Position numbers and translations under genes: made by a program. The notes below the pieces were generated by a model. It was not told the origin of the DNA, made no database searches, and saw only the letters and a list, made by a program, of their open reading frames with translations. This document shows positions 59 to 28,068 of a DNA stretch of 28,937 nt, piece after piece. This DNA comes from a virus. Where the stretch lies: positions 1-28,937 of IMG/VR virus record IMGVR_UViG_3300020185_000194; one strand, 5' to 3'. Each line of letters opens with the position of its first letter. Position 1 is the first letter of the stretch.

Positions 59-120
59 GTTCGTATATTTACGGGGTAAGGTTGCGGTGGCAGCCGAGCG
101 TAATTAAAAACCCAATTGTG
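59..120 (+). promoter_or_regulatory. shared leader element, copy A
   Basis: A 29-base core (59-87) begins GTTCGTATATT and ends GGTTGCGG. It is identical to copy C (4991-5019) and differs at four bases from copy B (473-501). The TATATT inside it could be a -10 box (inference). The core runs into a hairpin, GGTTGC (80-85), loop GGTG, GCAGCC (90-95), six pairs including one G-U. The leader ends with ACCCAATT just before the ATG at 121. It probably directs transcription of the small gene at 121. Confidence 0.6.
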
Positions 121-450
121 ATGAGAAGGAAATGGAATGCTGATTTAGTTGTTAATATGGTTAAGTATGAACTTGAGCAGATGGGTTTAGGCCATTTTGA
201 GACAAAGCATTTGCTGGATGGTGAGAGCGGTAAAGAGCCTCACATCATGGTTACCATGGATCCGAGCGATCGTCAATTCGGTTATGTAATTGAAGCACTC
301 GATCGTTATTTCAGCATTGATATGCTGGTTAACCGGTTTAAATGCCGTCAAAATTATTACAAGCTCCCCCAGTCCAAGAAGGACGAGTTGTTTGCTCAAC
401 GCATTCACCCGGAGTTGTGGGAGCAAGAGTTCCTAAAATCAATCGCATAA
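121..450 (+). CDS. hypothetical small phage protein (109 aa)
   Basis: I do not recognise this protein. It is short, soluble and mixed in charge, with no signal peptide, membrane segment or known catalytic motif; tyrosine and basic residues are common in its second half. The start at 121 is preferred over a TTG at 82 in the same frame because 59-120 is a shared leader, and because the CCC of ACCCAATT lies 10 bases before this ATG exactly as at 532 and 623. It lies first in a segment with the RadA-like ATPase, which suggests an early or middle gene, but nothing in the sequence gives its function. The frame is open to the window edge, so an N-terminal extension is possible but unlikely. Confidence 0.65.
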   Translation: MRRKWNADLVVNMVKYELEQMGLGHFETKHLLDGESGKEPHIMVTMDPSDRQFGYVIEALDRYFSIDMLVNRFKCRQNYYKLPQSKKDELFAQRIHPELWEQEFLKSIA

Positions 451-472: not shown

Positions 473-531
473 GTTCGTATATTCATGGGGTCCGGTTGCG
501 GGCAAAGCAGTTAAATTAAAACCCGATTGAT
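473..531 (+). promoter_or_regulatory. shared leader element, copy B
   Basis: The core 473-501 matches copies A and C at 25 of 29 positions. The hairpin arms are GGTTGC (494-499) and GCAGTT (507-512); they still pair, using G-U wobbles where copies A and C have G-C. The ten bases or so before the core (TTGCAAGGA) also resemble copy A. ACCCGATT follows, with its CCC 10 bases before the ATG at 532. It probably drives the 24-codon ORF and the ATPase downstream. Confidence 0.6.
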
Positions 532-606
532 ATGTGGATTGATGATGTGTGTAGTTTGGTGTTGATTGAAGCGATAGCGATAGAAGAAATTAGTGAGAAT
601 AAATAA
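532..606 (+). CDS. 24-codon small ORF or leader peptide
   Basis: This ORF encodes a 24-residue acidic, hydrophobic peptide that begins MWIDDVCSLV and ends EEISENK. It is supported by position rather than length: its ATG stands at the same distance from leader copy B (30 bases) as the starts at 121 (33) and 5052 (32), and it carries the start-proximal ACCCGATT with CCC at -10. Its stop at 604-606 lies 16 bases before the ATPase start at 623, so it may be a leader peptide that tunes ATPase translation, a genuine microprotein, or the remnant of a deleted gene. No homology can be judged at this length. Confidence 0.4.
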   Translation: MWIDDVCSLVLIEAIAIEEISENK

Positions 607-611
607 AAAAA

Positions 612-622
612 ACCCAATTAAT
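612..622 (+). promoter_or_regulatory. start-proximal ACCCAATTAAT motif of the ATPase gene
   Basis: ACCCAATT occurs directly before the starts at 121 and 623, and ACCCGATT before 532, always with CCC beginning 10 bases upstream of the ATG. None is a Shine-Dalgarno sequence. The copy here is complementary over 11 bases to 1366-1376, immediately after the same gene, so it may be a target for RNA pairing that blocks initiation. Confidence 0.5.
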
Positions 623-1360
623 ATGTTGCAAGTAAAAGTTACCAAGATGAATGACCTGAAGTTCGAGAAGAACTTATTCAACCCGTTGAAAACAGGCCGT
701 GCGATTGATAGTTATTTTAGTAGTGAAGGTGGTGTAATGCCAGGAACGAATACCGTTGTTACGGGTGATCCAGGTGTTGGTAAAACAACAGTGTTGCTAG
801 ATATCCTTGCTGACATGAATAATAAGGGCAAGAAAGTGTTGTTTGTGTCGGGTGAGATGAATCAGATTGATATGGTTGGTTACGTTAAGCGTTTCCCCAA
901 GTTTGGTGATGTGCCGATTTTGTTTTTAGGCGATAGCGATGATGAGGATCCGCTTGAAGTATTGCGTGGTGCATTTAATGTTGGTTATGATTGTGTGTTG
1001 ATTGATTCGATTGCGGAGGTAGCAGTCATGATTCAAGATTATTACGGTGGCACTTATAAGGGTGCGACGACGAAGCTACTGACGTTGCTTGAAGAACAGA
1101 ATATGGGTGAGAATATGCGTGGTATTAATACGGCAACGTTGCTCATCCAGCAAGTAACCAAATCAGGTTCGTTCGCTGGTTCAAATCGCATTAAGCATAT
1201 GACGACAGCGATGGGTCATTTAAAATTCGATAATGAAGGTAATCGTTACCTCGCATTTAGTAAAAACCGTCGTGGTGGTAGCATGAATAAATTTTTCTTC
1301 AATTTAAACACCAAGAATCAAGTGAATTGGATGTATGAAGAAGCAGCAAACGCTGAATAA
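623..1360 (+). CDS. RadA/RecA-superfamily ATPase (phage RadA-like)
   Basis: This is a RecA-fold ATPase of 245 residues. Walker A is GDPGVGKTT (48-56), an SGE follows at 76-78 as in RadA/Sms, Walker B is CVLIDS (124-129), and KNRRGG (215-220) matches the KNRFG-type motif of RadA. The preceding HMTTAMGHL resembles the RadA segment before that motif. It lacks the N-terminal zinc finger and the C-terminal Lon-like domain of bacterial RadA, so it is the ATPase core only. The role is probably ATP-driven DNA strand exchange or branch migration in phage recombination or replication; a KaiC/DnaB-like relative is an alternative. The start at 623 is chosen over 593 because ACCCAATT sits before it at the conserved spacing and 593 lies inside the upstream 24-codon ORF. 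Confidence 0.75.
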   Translation: MLQVKVTKMNDLKFEKNLFNPLKTGRAIDSYFSSEGGVMPGTNTVVTGDPGVGKTTVLLDILADMNNKGKKVLFVSGEMNQIDMVGYVKRFPKFGDVPILFLGDSDDEDPLEVLRGAFNVGYDCVLIDSIAEVAVMIQDYYGGTYKGATTKLLTLLEEQNMGENMRGINTATLLIQQVTKSGSFAGSNRIKHMTTAMGHLKFDNEGNRYLAFSKNRRGGSMNKFFFNLNTKNQVNWMYEEAANAE

Positions 1361-1365
1361 AAAAC

Positions 1366-1452
1366 ATTAATTGGGTGATGGGGGTGCGGTCATAACGGTG
1401 ACGGTGCCCCCGTCTTACCAACGGGGTGCGTGCGTGCGTACGGCGTACCGTA
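1366..1452 (+). ncRNA. candidate GC-rich structured RNA with anti-leader sequence
   Basis: This stretch begins six bases after the ATPase stop with ATTAATTGGGT, the exact complement of 612-622. It is followed by two hairpins that compete for the same C run: 1380-1387 with 1404-1411 (GGGGGTGC/GTGCCCCC, eight pairs, two of them G-U) and 1408-1413 with 1421-1426 (CCCCGT/ACGGGG, loop CTTACCA). A third stem, TACGG/CCGTA, lies at 1439-1452. Bases 1381-1440 have 40 G or C in 60, far above the rest of the window. TGCG is repeated three times near 1427-1438. No T run follows, so it is not a standard terminator. It could be a 3' UTR element or a small regulatory RNA; the limits are uncertain. Confidence 0.35.
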
Positions 1453-5888: not shown

Positions 5889-5909
5889 GAGCAATGCCAT
5901 GTTGATTGG

Positions 5910-5941
5910 AGGGGGAGGATGTTAACCTCCCCCTACTTTTA
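5910..5941 (+). terminator. rho-independent terminator after the DUF932 gene
   Basis: AGGGGGAGG (5910-5918) and CCTCCCCCT (5926-5934) form a perfect 9-bp stem with a 7-base loop, followed by CTTTT and further T-rich sequence. This is the clearest terminator in the window. Confidence 0.85.
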
Positions 5942-5956
5942 ATTTAATTTTACTAA

Positions 5957-24275: not shown

Positions 24276-26054
24276 ATGGCAAAACAACTTAAAAAAATAT
24301 TCGCAGCAGGTACTGATGAGGTAGTACAAGACTTTACTATAAACTCATGGCATGTATCTCAATCTGTAGATGCTCTTACCGCTGCTGAAGCTTATGATAT
24401 TTCAATTAGTGGTAGTTTAAATGTAACTGGATCTGTTAATATCAAAGAATTAGACACAGATGCTGCTCTTACTAATTTTGTAGTTATTGATACTTCTACA
24501 GGTACTTTAAAAAAACGTACTGGGGGGTCAGCAGGTACTAATGGTTCATCAGGTACTTCAGGATCAAGTGGTTCGTCAGGTACTAGTGGTTCATCAGGTT
24601 CTTCGGGTACTTCAGGTACTTCAGTTGTTGGTCCTACAGGTAATTCGGGTTCATCAGGCTCATCAGGTACTTCAGGTACATCAGCTGGGGGTATAACAGG
24701 ATTAGATACTCAAGTTTTGTATTTTGATGGGGATGATAATCCTGCAGGTGATAGTGAATTAACTTGGGATGATGTTAATAAAACATTAAGAATTTCTTCC
24801 GCAGATAATGGAACCTCAGGAAAATCTAATTTAATATTAACTAACGATGTTGCTAATCCTACACTTTCTACAATTAATTTAGGAAATATTGTTGGAAAAA
24901 TGCCTGATGATGCTACGGGTATAGAACATGCTAAAATACAATTTGAACCAGATAATGCCGATTGGGTATATGCTAGTGGAGAATGGAAAATAGCACCTTC
25001 AGCTATAACTTTTTGGACTAATACTACTAATGTTTCTACTTTAAAAATGAAAATTGGGTATAATGGGCAAATTCAATTAGCTAAATATGGTAATTCGGGA
25101 AATTTTGTATCTTCATCTCCTACCTATAACTTAGGAGTAGACACTACAGGAAATATAGTAGAAGTTAGTACTAATTACTCAGGATCTAATTATCAAGTTA
25201 ATACTGTAGATAGAATAGATTATAATAGTTATACTAATGAGGATTTAACGGGGGCAGCTTCATATCAATTTGTAGTAGATGGAACAGTTGGGTTTAATAC
25301 GGCAGTACCTGATACTAATAAAATTTTAATTCAAACTACTACTAAATCATCTTCTACTAGAATAAAGATTAATATTGGTTCTTTTACAGAAGAAATGAAT
25401 ATTATGACTCCTGTCTCCCAATCTAGATTATTAATCGGAAATACAAATGCAGGAGTAGGTAATGATTGGGCTGTATATGAAGTTACACAAGTAAGTTTAT
25501 TAAATGATGCTACTAAAGGTGATTATTTAGATTTATATTTAGAATATATTTCTGAAGTAGGTGGTACTACATTTACAGCAGGTACGGGACTTGAAGTATT
25601 ACAATTTAGACCTACTAACACTACTTCAACAACTACTATATATCCCATATCAAATTATTATACTAGAATAACTTTTGGTAATCTATCAGATGATGCTATT
25701 GATACTTTATTTGGATTTTGGTTAGATGAAAATTTTAGAACTAATACATTAAAAACAGGAGATGAATTAATTGTAGAAGCTAAATGGTTTAGTGATGGTG
25801 TCTTTGGTGAAAGTGGGGGAACTATTAATTTTATAGCTTTTGCTACTCAAGATGGTTCTACTCTTCGTAGAAGGTTTTTATCAAGAGATAATGGAAACGG
25901 ATCTGAAGTATTCCAAGTTGGGAATTCAACAGATGCAAATTATGGAAAAACCCAAATTTTTAAATTTCAATATTGGGAAAGATCATCTACAGAATATGGT
26001 TTAATTCCTTTATCAGCTTATGATTCATATCAACAACCTTCTGTATTAAACTAA
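24276..26054 (+). CDS. tail fibre protein with Gly-X-Y repeats, paralogue 1 (592 aa)
   Basis: Layout: an 83-residue N-terminal domain (MAKQLKKIF, SWHVSQSVDA, YDISISGSL) nearly identical in plan to that of the next fibre and therefore probably the attachment domain; a collagen-like Gly-X-Y stretch (84-136); and a long beta-rich C-terminal part. The final domain contains NLSDDAIDTLFGFWLDE and ends with IFKFQYWERSSTEYGLIPLS, related to the end of the next protein, and is probably the receptor-binding tip. Trimeric assembly through the repeats is expected from known collagen-like phage fibres. The start has no Shine-Dalgarno sequence; the previous gene ends four bases upstream. Confidence 0.75.
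   Translation: MAKQLKKIFAAGTDEVVQDFTINSWHVSQSVDALTAAEAYDISISGSLNVTGSVNIKELDTDAALTNFVVIDTSTGTLKKRTGGSAGTNGSSGTSGSSGSSGTSGSSGSSGTSGTSVVGPTGNSGSSGSSGTSGTSAGGITGLDTQVLYFDGDDNPAGDSELTWDDVNKTLRISSADNGTSGKSNLILTNDVANPTLSTINLGNIVGKMPDDATGIEHAKIQFEPDNADWVYASGEWKIAPSAITFWTNTTNVSTLKMKIGYNGQIQLAKYGNSGNFVSSSPTYNLGVDTTGNIVEVSTNYSGSNYQVNTVDRIDYNSYTNEDLTGAASYQFVVDGTVGFNTAVPDTNKILIQTTTKSSSTRIKINIGSFTEEMNIMTPVSQSRLLIGNTNAGVGNDWAVYEVTQVSLLNDATKGDYLDLYLEYISEVGGTTFTAGTGLEVLQFRPTNTTSTTTIYPISNYYTRITFGNLSDDAIDTLFGFWLDENFRTNTLKTGDELIVEAKWFSDGVFGESGGTINFIAFATQDGSTLRRRFLSRDNGNGSEVFQVGNSTDANYGKTQIFKFQYWERSSTEYGLIPLSAYDSYQQPSVLN
24525..24683 (+). repeat. Gly-X-Y repeat coding region, fibre 1
   Basis: Residues 84-116 give 11 Gly-X-Y triplets (mostly GSS and GTS), then VV breaks the phase, then six more triplets (119-136). 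Serine is written with TCA, TCG, TCT and AGT codons, so the repeat is maintained at the protein level rather than as a clean DNA repeat. Confidence 0.85.
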
Positions 26055-26067
26055 TATTTAAAGTAAC

Positions 26068-28068
26068 ATGGCAAAACAACTCAAAAAGATATTTATTCCT
26101 GCTACTGATGAGGTAGTACAAAATTTTAGGATACAATCATGGCATGTATCTCAATCTGTAGATGCATTTACAGCAGCCCAAGATTACGATATTTCAATTA
26201 GTGGAAGCCTTACTACATCAGGAAGTGTAACTTTTAAAGGATTAAGTACTACTACAGGTCAAACTGATGTTTTAGTTTTAGATGGTGATATCATTAAAAA
26301 ACAAACAACAACTTTAGGTACTTCAGGTACATCAGGATCTTCAGGTACATCAGGCACATCAGGATCTTCAGGTACAAGTGGTACTTCAGGTACAAGCGGT
26401 TCTTCAGGTACTTCAGGTACTTCAGGTTCATCGGGTACAAGCGGTACTTCAGGTACAAGTGGTTCTTCAGGCACTTCGGGTTCAAGTGGTTCTTCAGGTT
26501 CATCGGGTACTAGCGGTACTTCAGGACAATCAATAGCAGGTTCTTCAGGTACATCAGGATCTTCAGGTTCTTCAGGTACATCAGGTAGTTCAGGCACATC
26601 CGGGTCAAGTGGTACAAGTGGTTTGACTTGTTATCAATATTCTATAACTCCCAGTACTTCAGGTCAATCTACTATAACATATGATAGTTGTGAATGTGAT
26701 GGAGGTACGCAAAATTTAATAGTATTACCTCCTATTGATTGTGGAAATAGTGCAGCATATTCTGGCGGAGTTGGGTACCCTATTCAACAACCTGTTAATT
26801 TTGGAACTTCAACAGGTACGGTTGCTATAGTAGGAATTGCTTATAGTGTACCTGATAGATTTATAGTTGAGTATAATGGAAGTATAGTTGCTGATAGTGG
26901 ATATAGAGGAGCTTCTTCATATAATATTGGGGGAGGTAACAGATCATCATTTACTACGGCATTAAATGGTCTTGTAGACCCCGTCACTAACCTTGCTTAT
27001 CCAAATACATCAATCCCAGGTACTGAAAGTGATGGGTATCCTACAGTAACTTCTCCAGGGACTACTACTATTACCTTTAATAAAAATCTTTCTACTGTAG
27101 AGTATGGTGATTTTAAAGTATATGCTCCTATGAGTAATACTGCATGGGACGCTGAAATCGGATGTCCTAATGGGGAAGCTTCACCTGTAGGTACTTCTAC
27201 TTATTCTGCTACAGTATTTGCTACAAGTGCTCCTACAGTAACTTCAGGAGAAGCAGCTACAATAACTTGTCAGGGAATTGCCGGGAGTATAGATAATTCA
27301 ACTGCTGGGGGAGGTACTACTACAGGTGGTAATGGGGATAATAATTACATTAGAGTAGTTCAACCTAATATTGTGTATAGTATAGATGAAAGCGTACCAG
27401 GGTATACTATTGATACTACGGTGGTTTCAGGTAATCCCGGAGCGGATACTATTGGATTTTCAAGTACTACTCCCACAGCTCCAGGTCAACTTTTTATAAA
27501 TACGGGAAGTGCAACAGGGGCAGGGGATTATTATTATTTATTTACTCAACAACTTGTTAATAGTGGATCAATTAGACTTGTTGGAGCAGCAGGTGGTGAT
27601 CGCACATTTAGTGGTTTAAGTGTTTCTGAAGGAGTTGGGTTTATTACAGTAACTTATGACACAGTAACAGTTGATAATGCTACTGCTTATGTTAGAGGTG
27701 AAAGTGCAGCTACATTTGATGTTAATGCTGATTGGTATGAATATACAATCCCTAGAGGATATAATCGTATAGCGATTCAAAATCTTAGCGATGATACAAC
27801 TACACCTTTTATTTTAAGAGCAGATAGTACCTTAGATGTAGGAGATAATGCTATTTTAGAAGTAGAATTAATAGCAGGAAGTTCAAGAACTTTTTATGGA
27901 TATTTCTATAATGTAGGACATAACTCAAGTAGTTTTTATAATAATGCGGGAACCCAAATATTAGCAGATGCCGATACTACATCAGTATTCCAAGTAATGT
28001 ATTGGGAATCCGGAAGCAGTGCTAATAATGGTTTAGTACCTTTAACAGCACAAAACGTTAATCCTTAA
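26068..28068 (+). CDS. tail fibre protein with Gly-X-Y repeats, paralogue 2 (666 aa)
   Basis: The N-terminal 83 residues match fibre 1 closely (MAKQLKKIF, DEVVQNF, SWHVSQSVDA, YDISISGSL). The Gly-X-Y stretch is about twice as long (33 triplets, 84-184). After it comes a domain with five Cys (CYQYSITPS, YDSCECDGG, IDCGNSA), which fibre 1 lacks, then beta-rich sequence. The last 100 residues (AIQNLSDD, VFQVMYWESGSS, NGLVPLTA) align with the end of fibre 1. Two fibres with a shared base and tip but different middles suggest alternative or paired receptor binding. The gene starts 13 bases after fibre 1. Confidence 0.75.
   Translation: MAKQLKKIFIPATDEVVQNFRIQSWHVSQSVDAFTAAQDYDISISGSLTTSGSVTFKGLSTTTGQTDVLVLDGDIIKKQTTTLGTSGTSGSSGTSGTSGSSGTSGTSGTSGSSGTSGTSGSSGTSGTSGTSGSSGTSGSSGSSGSSGTSGTSGQSIAGSSGTSGSSGSSGTSGSSGTSGSSGTSGLTCYQYSITPSTSGQSTITYDSCECDGGTQNLIVLPPIDCGNSAAYSGGVGYPIQQPVNFGTSTGTVAIVGIAYSVPDRFIVEYNGSIVADSGYRGASSYNIGGGNRSSFTTALNGLVDPVTNLAYPNTSIPGTESDGYPTVTSPGTTTITFNKNLSTVEYGDFKVYAPMSNTAWDAEIGCPNGEASPVGTSTYSATVFATSAPTVTSGEAATITCQGIAGSIDNSTAGGGTTTGGNGDNNYIRVVQPNIVYSIDESVPGYTIDTTVVSGNPGADTIGFSSTTPTAPGQLFINTGSATGAGDYYYLFTQQLVNSGSIRLVGAAGGDRTFSGLSVSEGVGFITVTYDTVTVDNATAYVRGESAATFDVNADWYEYTIPRGYNRIAIQNLSDDTTTPFILRADSTLDVGDNAILEVELIAGSSRTFYGYFYNVGHNSSSFYNNAGTQILADADTTSVFQVMYWESGSSANNGLVPLTAQNVNP
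26317..26619 (+). repeat. Gly-X-Y repeat coding region, fibre 2
   Basis: There are 24 consecutive triplets of the GTS/GSS type (residues 84-155, the last being GQS), then IA interrupts the phase, then nine more triplets (158-184). No proline occurs in the repeats, unlike animal collagen. Long open frames on the other strand here are shadows of the repeat. Confidence 0.9.

Follow-up and report, generated by a model that had tools for sequence, protein, structure and literature searches.

The mRNA of a RadA/RecA-like ATPase gene in this virus carries, between its stop codon and a terminator-like hairpin, an exact complement of its own leader. The complementarity is a real pairing between the 5' and 3' UTRs of the message, a conclusion that follows from dinucleotide shuffles, compensatory change in relatives, control genes, swaps of partners between loci and the folding of whole mRNAs. 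The same layout is present, as far as sequence can tell, in many viruses of Bacteroidota bacteria, and the self-pairing message probably limits its own translation.

Genome and gene context

The window, that is, the whole stretch of DNA analysed, is an entire viral record of 28,937 bases in which baseplate and other tail genes are present. Two consecutive fibre-like ORFs (24276-28068) have a common start, MAKQLKKIF, and long GTSGSSGTSG repeats. A blastn search of named phages gave no match; in cellular genomes, radA relatives sharing more than 40% identity come mostly from Bacteroidota assemblies. The radA-like gene itself (623-1360, plus strand, 245 aa) matches PF06745, and its product matched chains of the DNA repair protein RadA at E about 1e-12, as well as RecA chains. 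The RecA-fold ATPase core is conserved: Walker A, GDPG[VI]GK[ST], and a KNRRG motif that resembles KNRFG, which we take to be the RadA motif, are retained in all 11 aligned RadA-like proteins.

Near the left end of the window lies a neighbouring gene of unassigned function (121-450, plus strand), followed by a putative early promoter and transcript start for the radA-like unit (474-498, plus strand), consisting of TTCGTATATT, a -7-type box, at 474-483 and GGGGTCCGGTTG at 487-498; the block recurs at other early genes and in relatives. The putative promoter block TTCGTATATTYAYGGGGT stands at 60 and at 474, ahead of gene 121 and of a 24-codon ORF (532-606, plus strand), with the radA-like gene downstream of the second copy. 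An early promoter and 5'-UTR block, TTCGTATATTYAYGGGGTNNGGTTG, is common to three genes (at 60, 474 and 4992) and is found in relatives too.

Complementarity of leader and 3' UTR

The leader segment ACCCAATTAAT (612-622, plus strand) abuts the ATG at 623 and contains no Shine-Dalgarno-like sequence. Its exact complement, the anti-leader ATTAATTGGGT (1366-1376, plus strand), begins five bases past the TAA (1358-1360) of the gene, and the 11-base match claimed in the first-pass annotation was confirmed in the sequence. That annotation had also asked whether shuffled 3' regions would reach 11-base matches to the leader as often; in 5000 dinucleotide shuffles the 90-base 3' region (1361-1450) never did, and the shorter region 1361-1400 did so only twice in 5000. 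Among 5756 plus-strand 40-base windows of the 28.9-kb contig, the 11-base match is unique to the site at 1366-1376.

The radA-like gene is found in four IMG/VR contigs at a protein identity of 82-89%. The leader is included in three of them, each of which retains the match between leader and 3' UTR despite changes on both sides: ACCCAATTAAAATG / CGTTTTAATTGGGT in L006 (14 bp with one G-U, running through the AUG), CCAATCAAA / TTTGATTGG in L003 and ACCCAATTAA / TTAATTGGGT in L002. Two base pairs are altered on both sides, from U-A to C-G and from U-A to A-U, and the check on covariation proposed for related phages shows the two sites changing in step and staying complementary. Taken within the four closest phages alone, covariation as high was reached in 64 of 500 shuffles, which is too little data by itself. 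A further case is provided by L160 and L159, holding the 5' and the 3' part, respectively, with a gene 89% identical; their two parts fit each other, with A-U where L031 has C-G.

Distant lineages and gene specificity

When 113 RadA-like loci were viewed without selection, the same layout was seen with unrelated sequences in separate radA lineages. Loci L028-L030 pair ACACAAAACAAA with TTTGTTTTGTGT, and L031-L033 together with L231 pair GTAAATAATAAACCAC with GTGGTTTTTACTAATTATTTAC; the partner of GTAAATAATAAACCAC, as an example from a separate lineage, is also written GTGGTTT..ATTATTTAC. Another lineage has TAATAATAAAGG..AAATAAAGGT / ACCTTTATTT..TATTATTA, L176-L184 have GTAAATAATTAATAATAATAAAGG / CCTTTATTAATTATTTAC, and the layout is also present in L211, L187 (9 bp across the AUG), L188 and L191, L197 and L166. 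On a tree of the RadA-like loci, from which the window sequence was left out with its 89% relative L002 kept in, and on which a few low-complexity members were scored as paired by eye, the trait falls in at least six separate clades.

For the statistical comparison the 3' UTR was cut at the hairpin and each case was set against 300 shuffles, with other genes of the same phages as controls. Of the RadA-like loci, 53 have a free 3' end, and in 18 of these the pairing of the gene's own leader with its own 3' UTR reached p<=0.05, vs. 22 of 518 control genes (Fisher 4e-10, a value that overstates independence because the RadA-like loci share ancestry); some radA copies were present among the controls, and in this respect the comparison is conservative. 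Where the hairpin is below -16 kcal/mol, the proportions become 15/24 and 5/79. When partners were swapped between loci, the cognate mean was -9.62 vs. -6.99 (sd 0.36) for permuted partners, and none of 5000 permutations reached the cognate value; with one locus per sequence type 2 of 5000 did so, and the same swap on control genes gave 583 of 5000, i.e. no signal. Over whole contigs, the 3' UTR was among the leader's top six plus-strand partners in 10 of 10 genomes. Where radA lies within an operon, pairing with the operon end was at the null level (2 of 46 loci), and L024, L214 and L207 have a strong hairpin yet no leader/3'-UTR pairing.

The idea that such pairing is a general feature of all genes was ruled out by the 518 controls, which stand at null. 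A few other genes do have it: a 3' UTR that before its hairpin is complementary to the gene's own leader was seen at L220:4338-5135, L219:1419-2510, L190:5000-5821 and L200:518-1426, all four without a Pfam match. The design is therefore not strictly tied to radA.

Duplex, hairpin and folding of the mRNA

In the 23 closed cases the duplex measures 9-22 bp and falls within -39 to +4 relative to the AUG, overlapping the ribosome landing site as in the icaR type of pairing; 10 of the 23 finish no more than 4 nt from the AUG. The anti-leader is listed at 9 nt or less from the stop in 21 of 23, though in L003 the true distance is about 26, 15 nt having been trimmed first. In L031-33, L209 and L177 the duplex stops 13-15 nt ahead of the AUG, and for this reason a simple block of initiation is not obvious there.

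Directly after the anti-leader of the window follows a 38-nt hairpin (1377-1414, plus strand, -27.6 kcal/mol), terminator-like or 3'-end-protecting, the upper stem of which keeps its pairing in relatives with different bases. In L178, L184 and L188 the order of stop, seed and intrinsic terminator is seen in full, with a typical terminator and U-run; the hairpins of the window and its group are without a U-run. Folding of eight whole mRNAs, with transcript starts guessed from the promoter box, gave leader-3'UTR pairing probabilities from 0.74 (the window) to 0.99, and the ends were closed in 22 of 32 hairpin-ended RadA-like mRNAs vs. 14 of 60 controls, some of the latter being radA copies. Closed ends are thus predicted for the mRNA of the window and of about 20 relatives. 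Complementarity, conservation, compensatory change, gene specificity and predicted closure are established.

Other leaders as possible targets

A set of target genes had been proposed along with the pairing, and the additional matches claimed before 121 and 532 were indeed found: ACCCAATT (110-117, plus strand), which precedes the ATG at 121 and is a possible second target, and ACCCGATT (521-528, plus strand), which precedes the ATG at 532 and is a weak one. The leader core is common to radA and gene 121 in three phages, the partly matching leader of gene 121 being retained in the window, G001 and G004, and in L006 the neighbour's leader is as strong a partner as radA's own (-18.3 vs. -17.7). 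The 24-codon ORF has a separate copy of the leader motif, but it occurs in this contig only and is missing from the closest relatives, which makes the count of three leaders particular to this contig. When the leaders of a locus were ranked against the pre-hairpin part of the 3' UTR, the own leader came first in 13 of 20 cases, with 2.0 expected; a ranking against 40 nt of 3' UTR, hairpin included, was dropped as uninformative because the G-rich hairpin dominates it. The first-pass annotation had offered a UTR-derived RNA or a long-range circularisation as the agent, and the basis that both share, the pairing of leader and 3' UTR, held up under shuffles, compensation, swaps, controls and folding. 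The wider claim of a set of genes came out weaker: the message's own leader is the best partner, and the targets in trans amount to one neighbour and a tiny ORF specific to the contig.

At 5889-5945 of the window, a DUF932 gene likewise ends in a strong hairpin, with TTGATTGG ahead of it; allowing one G-U, this segment could form a duplex with CCAATTAA leaders.

The downstream GC-rich stretch

The anti-leader had been described as heading a GC-rich structured stretch. Of that stretch, only the hairpin at 1377-1414 is part of the 3' end; from about 1430 a separate conserved non-coding element begins (1430-1570), outside the pairing and ending in the box TCGACAAGTATATACGAATAT (1545-1565). This element of about 130 nt has palindromes around GCGTACGGCGTAC, a core CCAC..CGCG..TGATGTCCAT and a tail box TCGACAAGTATATACRAATAT; about 20 copies, in several gene contexts, occur across the phage contigs examined, and in L110, L116, L117 and L169 a second tail box stands about 95-145 nt beyond it. 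It is perhaps a late promoter, an origin or a packaging site. RNAalifold gave no consensus fold for it, and no Rfam family was matched at the gathering score, a permissive threshold giving nothing meaningful. A single structured RNA over 1366-1580 was rejected, as the downstream part occurs elsewhere without the anti-leader and has no RNAalifold consensus.

Function and comparison with known systems

Functional 5'-3' UTR pairing in bacteria is known from a handful of single genes, and we know of no description of self-complementary mRNA ends in phages. Bacteroidota mRNAs often lack Shine-Dalgarno sites. The hbs gene of Bacillus subtilis, one of the systems considered below, encodes a DNA-binding protein.

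By analogy with icaR, the pairing most likely serves to sequester the leader, a form of translational autocontrol, and among the versions that invoke repression, protection or a small RNA we favour a repressed initiation. On this reading the radA-like mRNA would be short, about 0.9 kb, and most paired relatives apparently have one gene per transcript, the complement of the leader being placed right past the stop and ahead of the terminator-like hairpin. With no ribosome on the stop codon, the ends would pair over 9-22 bp, and the duplex would hide the site immediately before the AUG where the ribosome lands, and at times the AUG itself; initiation would drop, and the amount of protein would be limited. 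The anti-leader starts immediately after the stop codon (0-5 nt past it in most members); a terminating ribosome would therefore cover it and re-open the leader, which would leave a message open while it is being translated and closed when idle, a lock set by translation that the geometry suggests. We infer a lowered translation, a reset by the terminating ribosome and action within a single mRNA, not by way of a processed 3' fragment; the chances that end-pairing in cis covers the landing zone, lowers initiation and is reset in this way appear to us about even.

A small RNA derived from the 3' UTR, cut near the stop, with the anti-leader as 5' seed and the terminator hairpin behind it, would predict the same sequences as pairing in cis, and would repress both its parent mRNA and the neighbouring gene, whose leader is similar. 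Processed 3'-UTR small RNAs have this order of stop, seed and terminator, OppZ and CarZ target their own transcript (PMC7398697) and the leader of gene 121 matches in part in three phages; nevertheless we think this route unlikely, since a gene's own leader usually pairs best, additional targets are not retained across lineages and bulged duplexes across the whole leader resemble an end closure more than a short seed. Similarly doubtful is the reading that the closed ends protect the mRNA, with nucleases kept off by the hairpin and by the pairing of the 5' end. It has a precedent in hbs, as described in PMC7821165, it agrees with the duplex of several groups taking in the probable first transcribed bases (GTAAATAAT, just past the promoter box) with the AUG free, and it fits equally in the groups whose duplex stops 13-15 nt short of the AUG, but in the group of the window it is the AUG, not the 5' end, that the pairing adjoins or covers.

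The two copies also flank the gene as inverted repeats at the DNA level, where they might serve a recombinase or a DNA-binding protein. This is very improbable, as the complement spans the transcribed leader and not the promoter box, and one-sided bulges, G-U pairs, the position between stop and hairpin and the absence in operons speak against it as well. An antisense promoter was rejected on the same ground, the 3' UTR mirroring the transcribed leader only. Least credible of all is chance or composition, with A-rich leaders pairing with U-rich 3' ends: the low-complexity pairs of L030, L188 and L191 are indeed not significant by shuffling, but the dinucleotide shuffles, the null rate of the 518 control genes and the partner swaps contradict it. 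Repression of initiation apart, a rather improbable form of end-pairing would be closed-loop translation, in which the antiparallel duplex puts the stop beside the start and the terminating ribosome opens the leader and is handed to the AUG of that message; this would require the layout to have originated, or been rewritten, repeatedly in a single gene family, whose RecA-family product might itself promote annealing.

Among known systems, RNAIII/delta-haemolysin of S. aureus also has long-range pairing between both UTRs of one RNA; it also regulates other mRNAs in trans, and the effect of its end-pairing on translation is, by the account in the 2021 review (PMC7821165), not proven by mutation. 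The same review states that the applicability of 5'-3' UTR pairing to other genes needs further work (PMC7821165). OppZ and CarZ of Vibrio cholerae share the terminator-bearing 3' UTR with a seed that represses its own transcript, and differ in RNase E processing, Hfq binding and action in trans (PMC7398697). The 14-nt 5'-3' UTR duplex of hbs is close in form but belongs to a bacterial host gene and protects from RNase Y, as set out in the review (PMC7821165). Closest to the favoured repression is icaR of Staphylococcus aureus, in which a motif of the 3' UTR pairs with the region of its own mRNA where the ribosome lands, such pairing can block initiation and complementary mutations restored the pairing in vitro; there, a 7-nt UCCCCUG lying 260 nt past the stop targets the Shine-Dalgarno sequence and RNase III cuts the duplex (PMC3868564). 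Here, in contrast, the pairing is of 9-22 bp and mostly 0-12 nt past the stop, the window leader is without a Shine-Dalgarno, and the gene is a phage gene with many independent sequence versions.

The pairing is thus linked to a gene and recurs with unrelated sequences in six clades or more; the phages belong to a phylum whose mRNAs often do without Shine-Dalgarno sites, and dozens of natural compensatory variants are on hand for working out how the closure of mRNA ends operates.
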